Origin: Vineibacter terrae
Lineage (GTDB): Bacteria > Pseudomonadota > Alphaproteobacteria > Reyranellales > Reyranellaceae
Length of the DNA: 64,000 bases
Assembly: GCF_008039615.1 (NCBI RefSeq)
Contig: NZ_VDUZ01000001.1
Span: 242,834 to 306,833, forward strand
Reading direction: 5' to 3'
Shown: piece after piece, positions 19,327 to 30,332 of the stretch
How the letters are laid out: every line of letters starts with the position of its first letter
Numbering within the stretch: position 1 is the stretch's first letter
The notes under the pieces: generated by a model
The model's database searches: none
What the model saw: the letters and a program-made list of their open reading frames with translations, nothing else
Told to the model about the DNA's origin: nothing
Program-made: the position numbers and the translations under genes

Positions 19327-19327
<1 letters not shown>
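18989..19327 (-). CDS. Small lipoprotein of unknown function
   Basis: The 112-residue protein has a short signal sequence with a lipobox, LVAC, placing the lipidated cysteine at residue 20 (MVRGWKGRFAIVAALALVAC). The mature part is charged, with two further cysteines (ALCRSQIEG and MDSCMKARGY) that could form a disulfide in the periplasm. Its ATG overlaps the alaS stop (TGATG), so it is translationally coupled to alaS. It is probably anchored to the outer or inner membrane. No family is recognised. Confidence 0.7.
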
Positions 19328-21987
<2,660 letters not shown>

Positions 21988-22221: not shown

Positions 22222-22989
22222 ATGAGCGCACAACCATCGCCGCCAGGGGACGATGCACCCGGCATCATGGTCAGCGTCCCGGCCGAGCCGGTGCCGGCCC
22301 GCGCCGTCCTGCCGGCCCTGTACGAGCTCGTCGAGGCCCATACGCGCAACGCGCTCGCCACCGTGGCGGCCGAAGGCCGGACCATCTCGTGCAAGGCCGG
22401 CTGCGGCGCCTGCTGCCGGTATTTCGTTCCGGTCTCCGGCGTCGAGGCATATGCCCTGGCCGACCTGGTCGAGCGCATGCCCGAGCCGCGCCGCACGACG
22501 ATCAAGAAGCGCTTCGCCGACGCCGAGGCCCGCCTGGCCGAGTGGCGGCCGTTCGACGAGCAGATCCGCGGCGAGCCGCTGCCCGACGACGAGCACAAGC
22601 GCATGGTGACGGAGTATTTCCACCTCGGCATCCCCTGCCCGTTCCTCGAGGCGGAAAGCTGCTCCATCCACCCCGACCGCCCGCTGGTGTGCCGCGAATA
22701 CTTCGTGACGTCGCCGGCCGAGCATTGCGCCAGCCATGATGCCCGCCACCAGGTCAAGGGCGTGCGGCGCAAGTTCGTCGCCCATGCCCTGTGGTACCTG
22801 ACCTCGGAGGAGCCGACGCCGAAGGCGACCGTGATGCCGCTGACCCTGGCCCTGCACTGGGTCAAGCACCGGGCCGGCGAGGAGCAGCGGCGCAAGGGCC
22901 TCGAATGGCTGCGCCGCTTCTCCCTGATCCTGGAGAACCTGGCGCGGAACCACCGGCTCAATGCAACACCGCCCGGAGACCGTGCATGA
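22222..22989 (+). CDS. YkgJ-type cysteine-cluster protein, one domain
   Basis: The 255-residue cytosolic protein has one CxxxCxxCC domain (PF03692 type, annotated as zinc/iron-chelating). C57, C61, C64 and C65 lie in SCKAGCGACCRYF, and four more cysteines lie in IPCPFLEAESCSIHPDRP, VCREYF and AEHC. Eight ordered cysteines suggest one metal or iron-sulfur site. The PEPRRTTIKKRFADAE helix between the two halves recurs in all the domains of this cluster. The gene is divergent from alaS and its stop overlaps the start of the three-domain gene (ATGA), so the two are co-translated. The molecular function of the family is not established; a redox or metal role is inference. Confidence 0.88.
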   Translation: MSAQPSPPGDDAPGIMVSVPAEPVPARAVLPALYELVEAHTRNALATVAAEGRTISCKAGCGACCRYFVPVSGVEAYALADLVERMPEPRRTTIKKRFADAEARLAEWRPFDEQIRGEPLPDDEHKRMVTEYFHLGIPCPFLEAESCSIHPDRPLVCREYFVTSPAEHCASHDARHQVKGVRRKFVAHALWYLTSEEPTPKATVMPLTLALHWVKHRAGEEQRRKGLEWLRRFSLILENLARNHRLNATPPGDRA

Positions 22990-25331
22990 CATCGTCCGGC
23001 ATGGCCCCACCTGACGCGCCGCAGGTCGCCAGCGCCAATCTGCGCCTGCGCGTGGGCAACCTGACGGTCCAGGGGCGCATCACGGTGGCCACCGGACCGG
23101 TCAAGCCACAGGCCGTGCTGCCGGCGCTGCAGAACCTGGTGAACGCCGTGGTCACGGCCTCGGAGCAGGAGCTGGCCGATACCGGCTACAGCGTCTCCTG
23201 CAAGGCAGGGTGCGGCGCCTGCTGCCGCCAGCCGGTGCCGATCTCGGTCCCCGAGGCCTACTTCATCCGCGACCTGGTCGAGGCCATGCCCGAGCCGCGG
23301 CGCGCTGCGGTCAAGGCACGCTTCGGCGCCGCCCGCGAGCGCCTGCAGGCCGCCGGCCTGCACGACGCGGCCATGCATCTGGGCCAGATGTCGGTGCCCG
23401 ACCTGCAGCGCCTGGACGCCGCCTATTTCGACCTCGGCCTGGCCTGCCCCTTCCTCGAGGACGAGAGCTGCTCCATCCACGCCGACCGGCCGCTGATATG
23501 CCGCGAGTACCTGGTGACCTCGCCGGCCGAGCGCTGCGCGCGGCCGCATGCCGGCGGCATCGAGCGGGTGGCGATCCCCAAGCTGTCGCTGCTGCTGCAC
23601 CCGATCGGCGCCACCGCCAAGGGCGATTCGACCATGGCCCTGTCGGTGGCCCTGGACTGGGCCGATGCCCATCCCGACACCCTGCCCCTGCACAAGGGCA
23701 CCGACTGGGTGCAGTACTTCCTCAGCCGGCTCGGCGAATTGCCGGCCAGCAGCGAGCCGCCACCACCGCCCGTCAGGCCGACCGCCGACAGCGACGTCGT
23801 CGCGGGCGTGCGCCTGCCGGCCGGTGACGTCGCCGCATCGGCGATGCTGCCGGTCATCCAGGCGCTGGCCGATGAAGGCGTGCGGGCGGCGGTCGCCGAG
23901 GTCGAGGCCATCGGCGATCGCGTCTCGTGCCGCGCCGGCTGCAACGCCTGCTGCCATCATCTCGTGACGGTGAGCGTGGCGGAGGCGCATCGGCTGGCCG
24001 ATGTCGTCGCCCGGCTGCCCGAGCCACGCCAGGCGGCCGCGCGCCGGCGCTTCGCCGCGGCCGGGCAGGTCATATCCGGCTGGGACCGCGTCGGCGAGCT
24101 CGACCATCTGCTGGCCACCGCCGAGAGCAAGCCCGACCTGGAGCCGGCGTTCATGGCGCTGGGCCTGGCCTGCCCGCTGCTGGAGGAGGATGGCCGCTGC
24201 GCCATCTACGAGGAGCGGCCGCTGGTGTGCCGCGAGTACCTGGTGACGTCCGATCCCAGGCATTGCGCCTTCAAGGACGACGACGACGCGCGCCATCTGC
24301 GGCGGCTGCCCGTGGCCATGGTCGCGACCGCGGCGGCGCAGCTCGAGCTGGCCGACGACGCGCCGCGGCACTACGACCGGATCGACATCTTCCGTGCGCT
24401 GGCCTGGGTCGCGGGCCATCCCGACGCGTCGCCCCGCCTGCCGGCGCGGCGCTGGCTCGAGCGCTTCGCCCTGCGCCTGGGCGAGTCGCAGGCGGCGGCC
24501 GCGGTGACGGGGCGACGCATTCCCGAGGTGCCCGCCCTGGTCCCCTTCGGCGGCCGCGGCCCCAAGCCGGCGGAAGACGACACCGGTCCCGGGTTCGACA
24601 TCCCCATGCCGCCGGGCGCGGTGTCGGCCGAGGCGATGCTGCCCAGCTTCCGCGCCTACACCAATGCCCTGGTCGCCAACGCGGTCGAGCAGGTCGTCGC
24701 CGCCGGCAAATCGGTCTCGTGCCGCGCCGGCTGCGGCGCCTGCTGCAGCCAGAGCGTGCCGATCTCGACCGTCGAGGCGCGGCGCCTGGCGGCCCTGGTC
24801 GAGGCCATACCCGAGCCGCGGCGCAGCGAGATCCGCGGCCGCTTCGCCGAGACCGAGCGGCGCATCGCCGAATCCGACCTCGCCGCCGACTACGACCGCT
24901 GGGTCACGCATTCCAGCGCGCGCGACCGCCACATCCCGCACGACTACTTCAAGCTCGGCATACCCTGCCCCTTCCTCGAGGCGGGAAGCTGCTCGATCTA
25001 CGAGGAGCGGCCGCTGGTCTGCCGCGAGTACCTGGTGACCACGCCGGCCGAGAACTGCTCGCGCTACGGCGACCCGACGACCAGCATCGAGCTGGTGCCC
25101 AGCGCCTTCACGCATCTGGCGCTGCGGCATCTGGAGACGCCGTCGGGCGCGCGCACCGCCGAGACCGTGCCGCTGTCGCGCGCCCTGAGCTGGGCCGCGG
25201 CGCATCCCGCGACGGACGCGCCGCTGCATCCGGCGCGGGTCTGGATGAACCGCTTCCTGCACCGGCTGGAGAACGTGAAGAACTACGGCTACGCCGTGCG
25301 CTCCCTGTCGGAGGATGGTGGGAAGAGCTGA
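22986..25331 (+). CDS. Three-domain YkgJ-type cysteine-cluster protein
   Basis: The 781-residue protein is a tandem fusion of three copies of the same eight-cysteine domain. The clusters begin at C72 (SCKAGCGACCRQ), C315 (SCRAGCNACCHH) and C579 (SCRAGCGACCSQ). Each is followed about 100-130 residues later by a CPFL or CPLL, SC or RC, VCREYLVT or ICREYLVT, and final-cysteine set. Repeat spacing is about 243-264 residues. Proline- and charge-rich linkers join the copies. Family members are normally single-domain and 100-250 residues, so this length is unusual. The start at 22986 overlaps the stop of the previous gene by four bases. No signal peptide is present, so it is predicted cytosolic. Function unknown. 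Confidence 0.88.
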   Translation: MTSSGMAPPDAPQVASANLRLRVGNLTVQGRITVATGPVKPQAVLPALQNLVNAVVTASEQELADTGYSVSCKAGCGACCRQPVPISVPEAYFIRDLVEAMPEPRRAAVKARFGAARERLQAAGLHDAAMHLGQMSVPDLQRLDAAYFDLGLACPFLEDESCSIHADRPLICREYLVTSPAERCARPHAGGIERVAIPKLSLLLHPIGATAKGDSTMALSVALDWADAHPDTLPLHKGTDWVQYFLSRLGELPASSEPPPPPVRPTADSDVVAGVRLPAGDVAASAMLPVIQALADEGVRAAVAEVEAIGDRVSCRAGCNACCHHLVTVSVAEAHRLADVVARLPEPRQAAARRRFAAAGQVISGWDRVGELDHLLATAESKPDLEPAFMALGLACPLLEEDGRCAIYEERPLVCREYLVTSDPRHCAFKDDDDARHLRRLPVAMVATAAAQLELADDAPRHYDRIDIFRALAWVAGHPDASPRLPARRWLERFALRLGESQAAAAVTGRRIPEVPALVPFGGRGPKPAEDDTGPGFDIPMPPGAVSAEAMLPSFRAYTNALVANAVEQVVAAGKSVSCRAGCGACCSQSVPISTVEARRLAALVEAIPEPRRSEIRGRFAETERRIAESDLAADYDRWVTHSSARDRHIPHDYFKLGIPCPFLEAGSCSIYEERPLVCREYLVTTPAENCSRYGDPTTSIELVPSAFTHLALRHLETPSGARTAETVPLSRALSWAAAHPATDAPLHPARVWMNRFLHRLENVKNYGYAVRSLSEDGGKS

Positions 25332-25421
25332 TCCGGCGCGGGCAGCGCCGATCACGGCACATCCCTTCTCCCCGCGCAGGCGCCGGGCCGTCCGGGGAAG
25401 AGCGAGATTCAGCGGCAGAGC

Positions 25422-25507
25422 CTTCATGGTGAGCTTGTCGAACCATGAAGGCTCTCGCACAGCCATCAGTGCGTAGCGCTTCATGGTTCGACAAGCTCAC
25501 CATGAAG
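25422..25507. repeat. Family B palindromic repeat, copy 1
   Basis: The arms are CTTCATGGTGAGCTTGTCGA with following bases, and the matching CATGGTTCGACAAGCTCACC on the right, around a loop of about 27 bases. The same arms occur near 56,961-57,043, and a shortened version lies at 57,210-57,262. Confidence 0.85.
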
Positions 25508-25533
25508 CGCCATTGCCGCGAAGATGCCCGACT

Positions 25534-25629
25534 TTATCGAGAAGGAAACGTATTGACATCGCCGCTGTGCTTCGCGAAGAGTGCGGCCGCGATGATCAGG
25601 ACCATCACGATCCGACGCCGACGCAGCAT
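25534..25629 (-). CDS. Possible 31-residue membrane microprotein
   Basis: A short open frame starts MLRRRRIVMVLIIAAALF: four arginines followed by one hydrophobic stretch of about 12 residues, then a polar tail ending in PSR. A GGGAGAGG ribosome-binding site precedes the ATG by six bases. This is the shape of many bacterial single-span microproteins. It is the only plausible coding content in the 467-base gap between the three-domain gene and the aminotransferase, which otherwise holds a family B repeat and a hairpin terminator. Confidence 0.35.
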   Translation of the reverse strand: MLRRRRIVMVLIIAAALFAKHSGDVNTFPSR

Positions 25630-25703
25630 GCAACCTCTCCCGGGGCTGCGTGAGCGCGCGTCGTTGCATCGAGATCCCTAGCCGAGCAACATCGTCGCCA
25701 CCG

Positions 25704-25743
25704 CGAAAAGGCCACGGGCACCCCCCGTGGCCTTTTCGTTTTT
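25704..25743 (+). terminator. Strong hairpin with T-run upstream of the aminotransferase gene
   Basis: A 15-base perfect stem CGAAAAGGCCACGGG (25704-25718) pairs with CCCGTGGCCTTTTCG (25724-25738) around a 5-base loop, followed by TTTTT. It is the best intrinsic terminator in the window. It lies 370 bases past the three-domain gene and 55 bases before the aminotransferase start, so it insulates the two or acts as a leader terminator. Confidence 0.85.
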
Positions 25744-25798
25744 GGCCCTGCCCATCGCTTCCGCCACCGCCACCGACACCCGCCTGAAAGGACATGCC

Positions 25799-27013
25799 AT
25801 GAGCATTGTCGCGCACGATCCGACGCAGAGCTTGATGGACATCACCGCCCGCCCTGACGCCGTGTTCGTGCGCGGTGACGGCAGCTGGCTCACCGATCAC
25901 CGCGGGCGTCGGCATCTCGACTTCGTGCAGGGCTGGGCGGTCAACACGCTGGGCCACTGCCCGCCGCAGATCGCGCACACGCTTGCCGAGCAGGCCGCCA
26001 AGCTGATCACCCCCAGCCCCGCCTTCTACAACGAGCCGTCGCTGCAGCTGGCCGGACTGCTGACGCGCCACAGCTGCTTCGACCGCGTGTTCTTCTGCAA
26101 CAGCGGCGGCGAGGCCAACGAGGGCGCCATCAAGCTGGCGCGCAAATGGGGCGCGCTGCGCAAGGACGGCGCCTACGGCATCATCACCTTCGGCGACGGC
26201 TTCCACGGCCGCACGCTGGCCACCATGTCGGCCTCGGGCAAGGCCGGCTGGGACGCGCTGTTCGAGCCCAAGGTGCCGGGCTTCGCCAAGGCGCGGCTCA
26301 ACGACATCGCCTCGGTCGAGGCGCTGATCGACGGCAACACCGTGGCGGTGATGCTGGAGCCGGTGCAGGGCGAGGCCGGCGTCGTGCCGGCCACCCCCGG
26401 CTTCCTGCGCGAGCTGCGGACGCTCACGCGCAAGCGCGGCCTGCTGCTGATCTTCGACGAGATCCAGACCGGCATGGGCCGCAGCGGTGCGCTGTTCGCC
26501 TACCAGCATTTCGGCGTCGAGCCCGACATCATGACCCTGGGCAAGGGCATCGGCGGCGGCGTGCCGCTGGCGGCACTGCTGGCCAAGGAGACCGTCTCGT
26601 GCTTCGCGCATGGCGACCAGGGCGGCACGTTCAACGGCAACCCGCTGATGGCCGCGGTCGGGGTCACGGTGATGCAGACGCTGCTGGCGCCCGGCTTCCT
26701 CGACCAGGTGCGCGCCACCGGCAAGCACCTGTCGCGGCGGCTGGCGGCGCTGGCCGCCGAGACCGGCATGCACGGCGAGCGCGGGCTGGGCCTGCTGCGC
26801 GCCCTGATGCTGCGCAGCAGCGACGCGCCGGCCATTGTCGAGGCGGCCCGGCAGCTGCAGCCGGTGGGCCTGCTGCTCAATGCGCCGCGGCCGCACCTGC
26901 TGCGCTTCATGCCGGCGCTCACCGTCACCACGGCCGAGATCGACCGCATGGTCGAGCTGCTGCGCGAGGCGCTGGCCGTCGTGGCGGCGGCGGCACCATC
27001 GCGCGCGGCTTGA
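25799..27013 (+). CDS. Class III PLP-dependent aminotransferase (acetylornithine aminotransferase-like)
   Basis: The 404-residue enzyme has the fold-type I features: [41 protein letters not shown], and the PLP lysine K249 in [11 protein letters not shown], with [11 protein letters not shown] after it. It is closest in pattern to ArgD/acetylornithine and related omega-amino-acid transaminases, which use 2-oxoglutarate as acceptor. A true arginine-biosynthetic role is possible, but no arg genes are nearby. The start at 25799 follows AAAGGACATGCC. It sits between cysteine-cluster genes and is followed 66 bases later by the last of them. Confidence 0.88.
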
Positions 27014-27079
27014 CCGCCGGCACCGAAGCGCGTTGCCTTGAGGCCGCATCGCGGCCTGGGGCCGCGCGGGGAGCCAGCC

Positions 27080-27841
27080 ATGTCGAAAGATCGTCCCGAC
27101 GCCGCAGCACCGGCATCGCCGCAGGCGCTCCTGCCGGCGCTGCGGGCGCTGGTCGCCGAGGTCGTCGGCGCAGCCGTGGCCGAGGCCGAGGCCCAGGGCC
27201 GGCAGGTCTCCTGCGCCGCCGGCTGCGGTGCCTGCTGCCGACAGCTCGTGCCGATCGCGGATGTCGAAGCACAGGCCATCGCCGATCTGGTCGAGCGCCT
27301 GCCGCCAGCCCGGCGCGCCGAGATCGAGGCCCGCTTCGCCGAGGCCGAGCGCCGGATCGCAGCCTGGCAGCCGCTCGACAGCCTGCTCGATGCCGATGTC
27401 GACGCGCCCGCCGAGGAGCAGCTGCGCGTGGCCGCCGGGTATTTCCGGCTCGGCGTCGCCTGCCCGTTCCTGGAGGACGAAAGCTGCTCCATCTACCCCG
27501 AGCGGCCGCTGCTGTGCCGCGAGTACCTCGTCACGTCGCCCGCCGCCCATTGCGCGCGGCAATACGAGCTGCGCACGGACTCCGTGCGGCTGACCCGGCC
27601 CTCGTGGTCGCTGGCGCGCCTGGCCTCGGATGAGACGCCGCCGCAGCCGACCTATGTGCCCCTGTCGCTGGCGCTCTACTGGCAGCGCGAGCGCGCCCGG
27701 CCGGTCGCGCCGCAGCCGCTGGCCGTCTGGGTGGCCCGCTTCGAGGCCGCCAGCCGCCTGGTGGCCGAAAAGCTGGCGCAGGCCGAGCCCGACGCCGTGG
27801 TGGTGACGATGCACCGCACGACCGATGGAGGGGCGCCGTGA
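27080..27841 (+). CDS. YkgJ-type cysteine-cluster protein, one domain
   Basis: The 253-residue cytosolic protein has the same eight-cysteine arrangement as the two genes upstream: SCAAGCGACCRQL, then ACPFLEDESCSIYPERP, LCREYLVTSP and AAHC. It is the fifth copy of the domain in 5.6 kb. It begins 66 bases after the aminotransferase stop on the same strand. The C-terminal helix resembles those ending the other copies (LAVWVARFEAASRL). The start at 27080 is preceded by GGGGAGCC. Metal binding is likely from the cysteine spacing; the reaction or partner is unknown. Confidence 0.86.
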   Translation: MSKDRPDAAAPASPQALLPALRALVAEVVGAAVAEAEAQGRQVSCAAGCGACCRQLVPIADVEAQAIADLVERLPPARRAEIEARFAEAERRIAAWQPLDSLLDADVDAPAEEQLRVAAGYFRLGVACPFLEDESCSIYPERPLLCREYLVTSPAAHCARQYELRTDSVRLTRPSWSLARLASDETPPQPTYVPLSLALYWQRERARPVAPQPLAVWVARFEAASRLVAEKLAQAEPDAVVVTMHRTTDGGAP

Positions 27842-27880
27842 CGGCAGCGGCCAAGCAGGTGCTGTGGAGCGGACACATCC

Positions 27881-28013
27881 TTTCCTCCCCCACCGCAGGT
27901 GGGGGAGGTGGCCGAAGGCCGGAGGGGGAGCTGACGTGGTCTCAGTTACATGGACCACGTCGGCTCCCCTCCGCCCCTTCGGGGCACCTCCCCAGCAAAG
28001 CTGGGGAGGAAAA
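27881..28013. repeat. Family C palindromic repeat, copy 1
   Basis: The end arms TTTCCTCCCC...GGGGAGG and CCTCCCCAGC...GGGGAGGAAA are each hairpins. Between them lie GGCCGAAGGCC, a GACGTGGTC/GACCACGTC pair and CCCCTTCGGGG. Copies 2 and 3 are at 52,529 and 60,313. It lies between the last cysteine-cluster gene and the hydrolase gene. Confidence 0.88.
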
Positions 28014-28046
28014 GATGTGTCGGGAGATGAGCGCTGGAGTCGCGGC

Positions 28047-28664
28047 ATGACCATGCGCCTGCTCTTCCTGCCCGGCGTCAGCGGCCAGGGCAGCTTCTGG
28101 GAACCGGTCGCGGCGCGGCTGCCGGCCGGCTGGGATTGCACGCTGATCGACTGGCCCGGCATGGGGCCGGTACCGCCGGCGCCCGATATGCGATCGTTCG
28201 ACGATCTCGTGGCCGCGATCGCCGGCCGGCTCGATACGCCGGCCGTGCTGGTCGCCCAGTCGATGGGCGGCGTCGTGGCGATGCGCGCCGCGCTGCAGCG
28301 GCCCGACCGCGTGCCGGCGCTGGTGCTGACGGCGACCTCGGGCGGCATCGACCTGACATCGTTCGGTGCCGCTGACTGGCGGCCCGACTATCGCGTCACC
28401 TACCCGCAGGCGCCTTCCTGGGTCTACGCGCCGGGCCCGGACCTGTCGCCGGCCCTGGCCACGCTCGACATCCCCACCCTGCTGGTCTGGGCGACGCGCG
28501 ATGCCATCAGTCCGCTGGCCGTCGGCCGCCACCTGGCAAGGCTGCTGCCGCGCGCCAGCCTGCTGGAGATCGACAGCGACGACCATTGGGTGGCGCGGGC
28601 CCATGCCGAGACGGTCGCGGCGGCGATCATGCGGCATGTGGCTGATAGCGTTCTGGAAAAGTAA
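28047..28664 (+). CDS. Alpha/beta hydrolase
   Basis: The 205-residue cytosolic protein has an alpha/beta hydrolase core: the N-terminal RLLFLPGVSGQGSFW with the oxyanion-hole region, the nucleophile elbow AQSMGG with S72, TLLVWATRDAISP for the acid strand, and the histidine in DSDDHWVARAH. It is shorter than most family members because the cap is minimal. The substrate is not recognisable. It follows the fifth cysteine-cluster gene with only a family C repeat between them. The start MTM at 28047 could also be the second ATG six bases on. Confidence 0.82.
   Translation: MTMRLLFLPGVSGQGSFWEPVAARLPAGWDCTLIDWPGMGPVPPAPDMRSFDDLVAAIAGRLDTPAVLVAQSMGGVVAMRAALQRPDRVPALVLTATSGGIDLTSFGAADWRPDYRVTYPQAPSWVYAPGPDLSPALATLDIPTLLVWATRDAISPLAVGRHLARLLPRASLLEIDSDDHWVARAHAETVAAAIMRHVADSVLEK

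Positions 28665-29258: not shown

Positions 29259-30332
<1,074 letters not shown>

Follow-up and report, generated by a model that had tools for sequence, protein, structure and literature searches.

Domains of the PF03692 (YkgJ-type) family are described by eight ordered cysteines each, and we know of no function assigned within the family apart from that of FliB. Here, we analysed a 64,000-nucleotide stretch of the genome of Vineibacter terrae (the window), in which three genes between alaS and recA encode five PF03692 domains, three of them on a single chain. The closest described system is FliB, the flagellin lysine methylase of Salmonella, which has eight conserved cysteines, holds one [4Fe-4S] cluster and methylates lysine in an S-adenosylmethionine-dependent manner; the part of its description drawn on here likens the FliB cysteine motif to PF03692 (PMC8598068). 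A PF03692 gene also lies beside oleABCD in Xanthomonas, its significance being given as unknown in the relevant part of that source (PMC7064751), so the wider family has other contexts. Another protein-modifying family has been described in loci of the type VI secretion system (T6SS), and the words cysteine and FliB are absent from the portion of that paper drawn on here (PMC4431377). In the literature searched, one paper, a transcriptome study of Campylobacter, mentions YkgJ together with type VI secretion.

The window proteins resemble the PF03692 family in scoring above its cut-off and in having, after a first cysteine cluster, a further group of four cysteines. They differ from it in the spacing of the first motif, which is C-x3-C-x2-CC in the subfamily of the window versus C-x2-C-x2-CC in the family name and in the other PF03692 gene of the same genome, and in the fusion of three domains in one protein. 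With FliB, as far as the cited part of its description goes, the subfamily has in common eight conserved cysteines and a first motif ending in CC, whereas the motif itself is C-x4-C-x3-CC in FliB. By analogy with FliB, we tentatively propose, at somewhat less than an even chance, that the domains may be iron-sulfur protein-modifying modules of a FliB-like kind, with parts of the T6SS among their targets, and that the array in the window's family was expanded for more targets. The chemistry in this proposal is a best guess resting on that analogy.

Five domains with a nearly fixed cysteine pattern

Genomes are numbered below, G000 being that of the window (8.76 Mb in 135 contigs, with the array on contig C1) and G000 to G003 representing the genus. 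The array consists of the following features, the boundaries of D2, D3 and D4 having been set by us.

22222 to 22989, plus strand: single-domain PF03692 protein, copy A, 255 residues (Pfam match); groups with one G002 copy in the domain tree; cysteines at residues 57, 61, 64, 65, 139, 147, 157 and 169
22986 to 25331, plus strand: three-domain PF03692 fusion, 781 residues (Pfam match); three-domain fusions also in G001, G002 and G003
22986 to 23795, plus strand: domain D2 of the fusion; groups with domains of G001, G002 and G003
23796 to 24605, plus strand: domain D3 of the fusion; groups with one G003 domain only
24606 to 25331, plus strand: domain D4 of the fusion; groups with one G001, one G003 and two G002 domains
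27080 to 27841, plus strand: single-domain PF03692 protein, copy D5, 253 residues (Pfam match); groups with one G002 copy

A sequence-only reading of the window had described five domains in three genes, eight cysteines in each domain, and a 781-residue protein with three cysteine clusters, beginning at its residues 72, 315 and 579. This description was borne out. The 255-, 781- and 253-residue proteins score 33.3, 99.3 and 38.2 bits against a gathering cut-off of 23, the Pfam search returned three separate PF03692 stretches in the 781-residue protein, and exactly eight cysteines, with no further ones, occur in every one of the five domains. The ATGA overlap of two array genes was likewise found, shared by copy A and the fusion gene at 22986-22989.

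We then aligned 58 subfamily sequences, the window's five domains among them. Seventeen positions are invariant, namely the eight cysteines together with E90, R112, P155, L157, I164, R168, P169, R173 and V177 (D2 numbering), and all five window domains retain them, indicating at the level of sequence that the array is real and beyond chance. The first motif, C-x3-C-x2-CC, occurs in 58/58 rows and is followed, after 71-81 residues in the six commonest classes, by C-x7-C-x9-C-x11-C, with x8 for x7 in one row. Because every subfamily domain tabulated has at least eight cysteines, with eight kept in all 8 domains of the G001 locus and in the 5 of the window, the eight cysteines are, among the sequences compared, the rule for the subfamily and no peculiarity of the window cluster.

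An expanded metal or redox system, as the sequence-only reading had proposed, is possible though unproven. One form of it, suggested in that reading, would be a passive metal store or chelator, in keeping with the Pfam description of the domain as putatively zinc- or iron-chelating and with five copies of eight cysteines. However, there are only eight cysteines per roughly 250 residues, E90, R112, R168 and R173 are as invariant as the cysteines, and the five window domains have diverged to 36-46% pairwise identity; moreover, no metal-homeostasis family was found among the neighbours scanned (an aminotransferase, a hydrolase, alaS, recA and a 112-residue frame without a match). The invariance of these four residues and the divergence of the copies make a store the less likely form, and we regard it as highly improbable.

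Predicted structure and sequence relatives

An AlphaFold2 model of D2 reached a predicted local distance difference test (pLDDT) score of 82.9 with 13 sequences, and a pLDDT of 91.3 with a predicted template modelling score of 0.87 with 58. The cysteine region of this model is irregular but confidently predicted. A Foldseek search of the PDB with two D2 models gave nothing at E<=0.001 (best E 1.5 and 0.59), and searches by sequence gave no solved relative either, the best E being 1.1 for phmmer with protein P0002 and 0.78 for a profile search. The subfamily thus has a confident predicted model and no solved relative found in these searches. PF03692 proteins as a whole gave matches in 10/14 well-known control genomes. 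The other PF03692 gene of G000, at 156254-156460 of contig C7 (L003), belongs to a different type, with C-x2-C-x2-CC as its spacing.

T6SS genes beside the domain in other phyla

In a scan of genome contigs we examined the best 80 of 167 loci, assigning 31 to the window's family or order by alaS/recA neighbours, label or similarity and the remaining 49 elsewhere. T6SS seeds included TssB and VgrG, both Pfam-confirmed. Among the 49 non-family loci, T6SS genes lie near the domain in 21. At least two different T6SS genes were present in 16 of them (L064, L068, L070, L071, L072, L075, L077, L079, L086, L087, L089, L094, L104, L108, L118 and L136), and Hcp or VgrG alone in the remaining 5 (L080, L103, L111, L134 and L138). 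Pfam confirmed TssC, Hcp, TssE, TssF and TssG at L094, a ClpV-type ATPase at L064, and FHA, TssK, TssL, TssM and TssA around the domain gene at L075; at L108 a TssB-TssC fusion gene is directly upstream of the domain gene. The subfamily resembles T6SS accessory genes in that relatives labelled Acidobacteriota, Myxococcota, Verrucomicrobiota and Gammaproteobacteria are found in or beside T6SS clusters, although such placement applies only to part of the relatives in other phyla. The arrangements vary by lineage, and the T6SS label needs 10 changes on the domain tree, at least 3 of them on well-supported branches. In a metagenome-assembled genome (MAG) labelled Akkermansia, a pair of hcp-like genes lies between two copies, and no further T6SS gene was found in the locus (L111:8938-12086).

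The association was also examined at the level of whole genomes in Acidobacteriota. The subfamily occurs in 14/247 genomes (E<=1e-30) and TssK in 44/247, all 14 carriers among them (one-sided Fisher 4.6e-12, uncorrected for kinship); 5 of the TssK matches are weak as well as short, all of them outside the 14 carriers. The domain gene adjoins tssK in 10/14 carriers, in cases that resemble one arrangement, while the two lie about 22 kb apart on the same contig in one carrier and on different contigs in three. As a control, any PF03692 member was found in 124/247 genomes, of which 110 lack the subfamily. TssK was present in 14/14 carriers of the subfamily versus 22/110 carriers of other PF03692 members (Fisher 3.5e-9, kinship uncorrected). 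The same comparison was precluded in Verrucomicrobiota, where the subfamily occurs in 1/240 genomes and is too rare.

Methyltransferase partners

In addition to T6SS genes, some relatives have a methyltransferase partner. One gene at L064 fuses the domain to an MTS-type methyltransferase, and at L083 (Aquisphaera) an MTS-type methyltransferase gene overlaps the domain gene outside any T6SS cluster; such a gene is also close to the domain gene at L072, L094 and L137, and L094 has a PKMT-like methyltransferase gene beside it as well. The methyltransferase motif is NPPF in 4/5 and HPPF in the L064 fusion. These partners are like HemK/PrmC-type enzymes, whose models are among the best NCBIfam matches at L064 and L094, but differ in that all matches fall below the cut-offs of the named models.

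An iron-sulfur carrier or assembly scaffold, in which each domain would bear a cluster for delivery to clients and the array would raise capacity, would fit the eight invariant cysteines per domain, the irregular yet confidently modelled cysteine region and, from the cited part of its description, the single [4Fe-4S] cluster of the relative FliB (PMC8598068). Capacity alone would not need divergence to such low identity, however, and the methyltransferase fusion and the overlapping pair point to modification rather than delivery. We consider a carrier distinctly unlikely.

Origin and spread of the array

The domain was found in 38/61 genomes, comprising all 37 of the family (taken as Reyranellaceae) and one of the same order. 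It lies beside alaS and/or recA in 37/37 family genomes. In 34 of these a single contig holds both flanks; the recA flank is seen in G004 and the alaS flank in G025, and the locus of G009 is spread over two contigs. The proposal of the sequence-only reading that the domains had been inserted between alaS and recA is ruled out by this distribution, the domain being already beside one or both genes throughout the family genomes searched. The locus is single-copy in 28 genomes and multi-copy in nine (G009 being counted from two contig ends), with 5, 8, 5 and 3 copies in G000 to G003, at least 4 in G004, and 3 each in G007, G011 and G013. Conservation of the three-domain fusion, for which a check had been suggested earlier, was found in 4/4 genus genomes, so that restriction to a single strain, named there as part of a refuting outcome, does not apply; a two-domain fusion is present in G007, G011 and G013.

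On a quick alaS and recA tree, with SH-aLRT support only and G004 represented by 12% of columns, all nine multi-copy genomes fall together on the same side of a 100% branch. On this evidence the array had a single origin, within one clade. The domain tree was built from 99 of 132 rows; the 33 dropped were mostly single-copy family loci, together with the fragment L048 and with L067 and L109, left out as repeats of L046 and L051. One side of a 98% branch holds all 42 alaS-locus rows and, with them, L083, L046 and L051. The groupings of the window domains in this tree indicate that the array was built up within the family through tandem duplication and domain turnover, the latter seen in the G002 fusion, which has no D3-like domain and two D4-like ones.

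Ratios of nonsynonymous to synonymous substitution (dN/dS) per copy were 0.34-0.38 (A, D2, D4 and D5 against G002, D3 against G003), compared with 0.12 for alaS, 0.09 for recA and 0.34 for the alpha/beta hydrolase downstream. By these ratios the array copies evolve fast, yet under constraint. Such fast evolution, together with the turnover in G002, would be in keeping with near-neutral tandem duplication without new function, but all five pairs tested have dN/dS values well under 1, all 13 domains of the G001 and window loci keep eight cysteines, and the three-domain fusion persists across the genus. We give near-neutral duplication only a very slim chance.

A mobile origin was rejected, as P0002 had no plasmid match and viral contigs gave three matches, at 27-33% identity; a scan with anti-phage models gave one weak match, to a type IIG enzyme (E 0.0054), taken as noise. 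Several further observations concern copies in and outside the family. The single-copy gene of G033 (L178) is in two frames and is perhaps broken or affected by an assembly error. Three single-copy family genomes (L047, L049 and L050) have, at a distance from alaS, a second subfamily paralogue, which groups with L130, from a Caulobacter-labelled MAG. Two tandem subfamily copies in a Bryobacter MAG (L102:8166-9729) represent an independent duplication. In the window, one intergenic inverted repeat lies at 25422-25507 (perfect 29-nucleotide arms, 28 nucleotides apart) and another at 27872-28021 (19-nucleotide arms at 95%, 112 nucleotides apart); these two repeats, flanking parts of the array, could have aided duplication.

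T6SS in the window's own family

The T6SS sheath gene VipB was found in 14/37 family genomes, being present in 9/9 multi-copy but 5/28 single-copy ones (Fisher 1.6e-5). T6SS-driven expansion within the family was nevertheless set aside as independent evidence because the multi-copy state has one origin. G000 itself encodes TssA, B, C, E, F, G, K, L and M, ClpV, Hcp and VgrG on contig C9. Unlike T6SS accessory genes, the window copies lie at the alaS-recA locus on C1, away from this cluster, and no T6SS gene was found in any family locus searched. For the family of the window, the T6SS link is unproven. A very large open frame, of 4021 residues, lies within the T6SS region of C9, between tssM-side and tssA-side genes (L163:38-12103).

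Neighbouring genes

The genes in and around the array are as follows.

19327 to 21987, minus strand: alaS, divergent conserved flank (Pfam and locus comparison)
25799 to 27013, plus strand: ArgD-like class-III aminotransferase within the array, a genus-limited paralogue (Pfam and NCBIfam)
28047 to 28664, plus strand: alpha/beta hydrolase downstream of the array (Pfam)
29259 to 30332, minus strand: recA, conserved flank on the other side (Pfam and locus comparison)

Pfam confirmed alaS and recA as the flanks. The aminotransferase noted earlier in the middle of the array is indeed present and is of class III, scoring 677 bits against a cut-off of 568 for NF002985 (ArgD acetylornithine transaminase), but its conservation as a neighbour does not extend beyond the genus: at the locus it occurs in the 4 genus genomes only, and among 21 genomes searched these 4 alone exceed the model cut-off. 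It was accordingly rejected as a conserved array partner. Being one of three ArgD-like genes in G000 and genus-limited, it is not evidently part of the array system, and probably does not belong to it. In an Acidobacteria assembly, a class I/II aminotransferase, different in class from that of the window, is directly upstream of the domain gene (L115:7846-9717). The hydrolase also accompanies the arrays of G001, G002, G007, G009, G011 and G013, and was not found at the array loci of G003 or G004.

Discussion

In the mechanism that we propose, each domain would be a self-standing module whose eight cysteines bind metal, most probably in the form of a single iron-sulfur cluster like that of the distant relative FliB, and which would modify or mature other proteins. 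As the copies diverge, each may handle a different target, and the three-domain fusion would place several specificities on one chain. Judging from other phyla, T6SS machinery (tube, sheath or baseplate-side proteins) may be one target of the subfamily. Because of that link, and because G000 has a T6SS, some of the array copies may serve the system encoded elsewhere in the genome.

A number of results weigh against this proposal. First, the FliB model NF038110 had no match at E<=1 in G000 or in the three array proteins, so the FliB analogy is a claim on possible mechanism and not on membership; no NCBIfam model matched the three array proteins or five T6SS-side relatives. Second, the DUF7782 part of the HemK-like partner was found in 0/23 family genomes searched, G000 included, and such a partner in G000 was rejected on this search; nor was it found in 14 non-family genomes of the same search. 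Third, no T6SS gene was seen in 28/49 non-family loci, some of them short. The near neighbours at 12 of these 28 included an MTS methyltransferase at L083 and L137 and were otherwise of unrelated kinds (LrgB, GntR, GNAT, integrase, WD40 and others). Fourth, TssK in Acidobacteriota is more frequent in genomes with other PF03692 members than in those without any (22/110 versus 8/123, Fisher 0.003, kinship uncorrected), implying that part of the signal may be due to genome size or kinship. Fifth, a search with 18 seed proteins found no T6SS gene in the 64-kb window, and the coincidence of array and T6SS in 9/9 genomes counts, on the tree, as one event and not nine, since the multi-copy state is one event there. 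Finally, 23/28 single-copy family genomes carry the domain but no VipB, indicating that a T6SS-independent role must exist.

This last result bears on a housekeeping explanation independent of the T6SS, in which the ancestral copy beside alaS would do a family-wide job, such as the handling of iron-sulfur clusters or metal in connection with translation, with the array providing extra dosage or specialisation of that job. The copies kept in those 23 genomes have eight cysteines in the matched stretch in 22, G033 being the remaining one, and the constant placement beside alaS and/or recA and the many outside loci without T6SS genes agree with such a job. By contrast, it leaves unexplained the complete co-occurrence with TssK in Acidobacteriota, the direct adjacency to tssK and the several different T6SS arrangements. 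We judge it to be on the unlikely side, while taking it seriously.

A broader statement of the protein-modification proposal is that the subfamily represents a class of protein-modifying enzymes not recognised so far, with eight cysteines, probably an iron-sulfur cluster and a fold still absent from the PDB, which acts on T6SS machinery in several phyla, and that one alphaproteobacterial clade made of it a multi-domain set with as many as eight copies at a single locus, each copy having its own target. We hold this full statement to be unlikely, at about half the chance given to the narrower proposal. Cumulatively, 1) the fixed cysteine spacing, 2) the confident model without solved relatives and 3) the strong association with the T6SS suggest a testable job for PF03692. 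If the subfamily does modify T6SS parts, this would add a new layer to T6SS biology; if T6SS parts are not modified, the array would still provide a set of naturally diverged copies with which to learn what is recognised by the domain.

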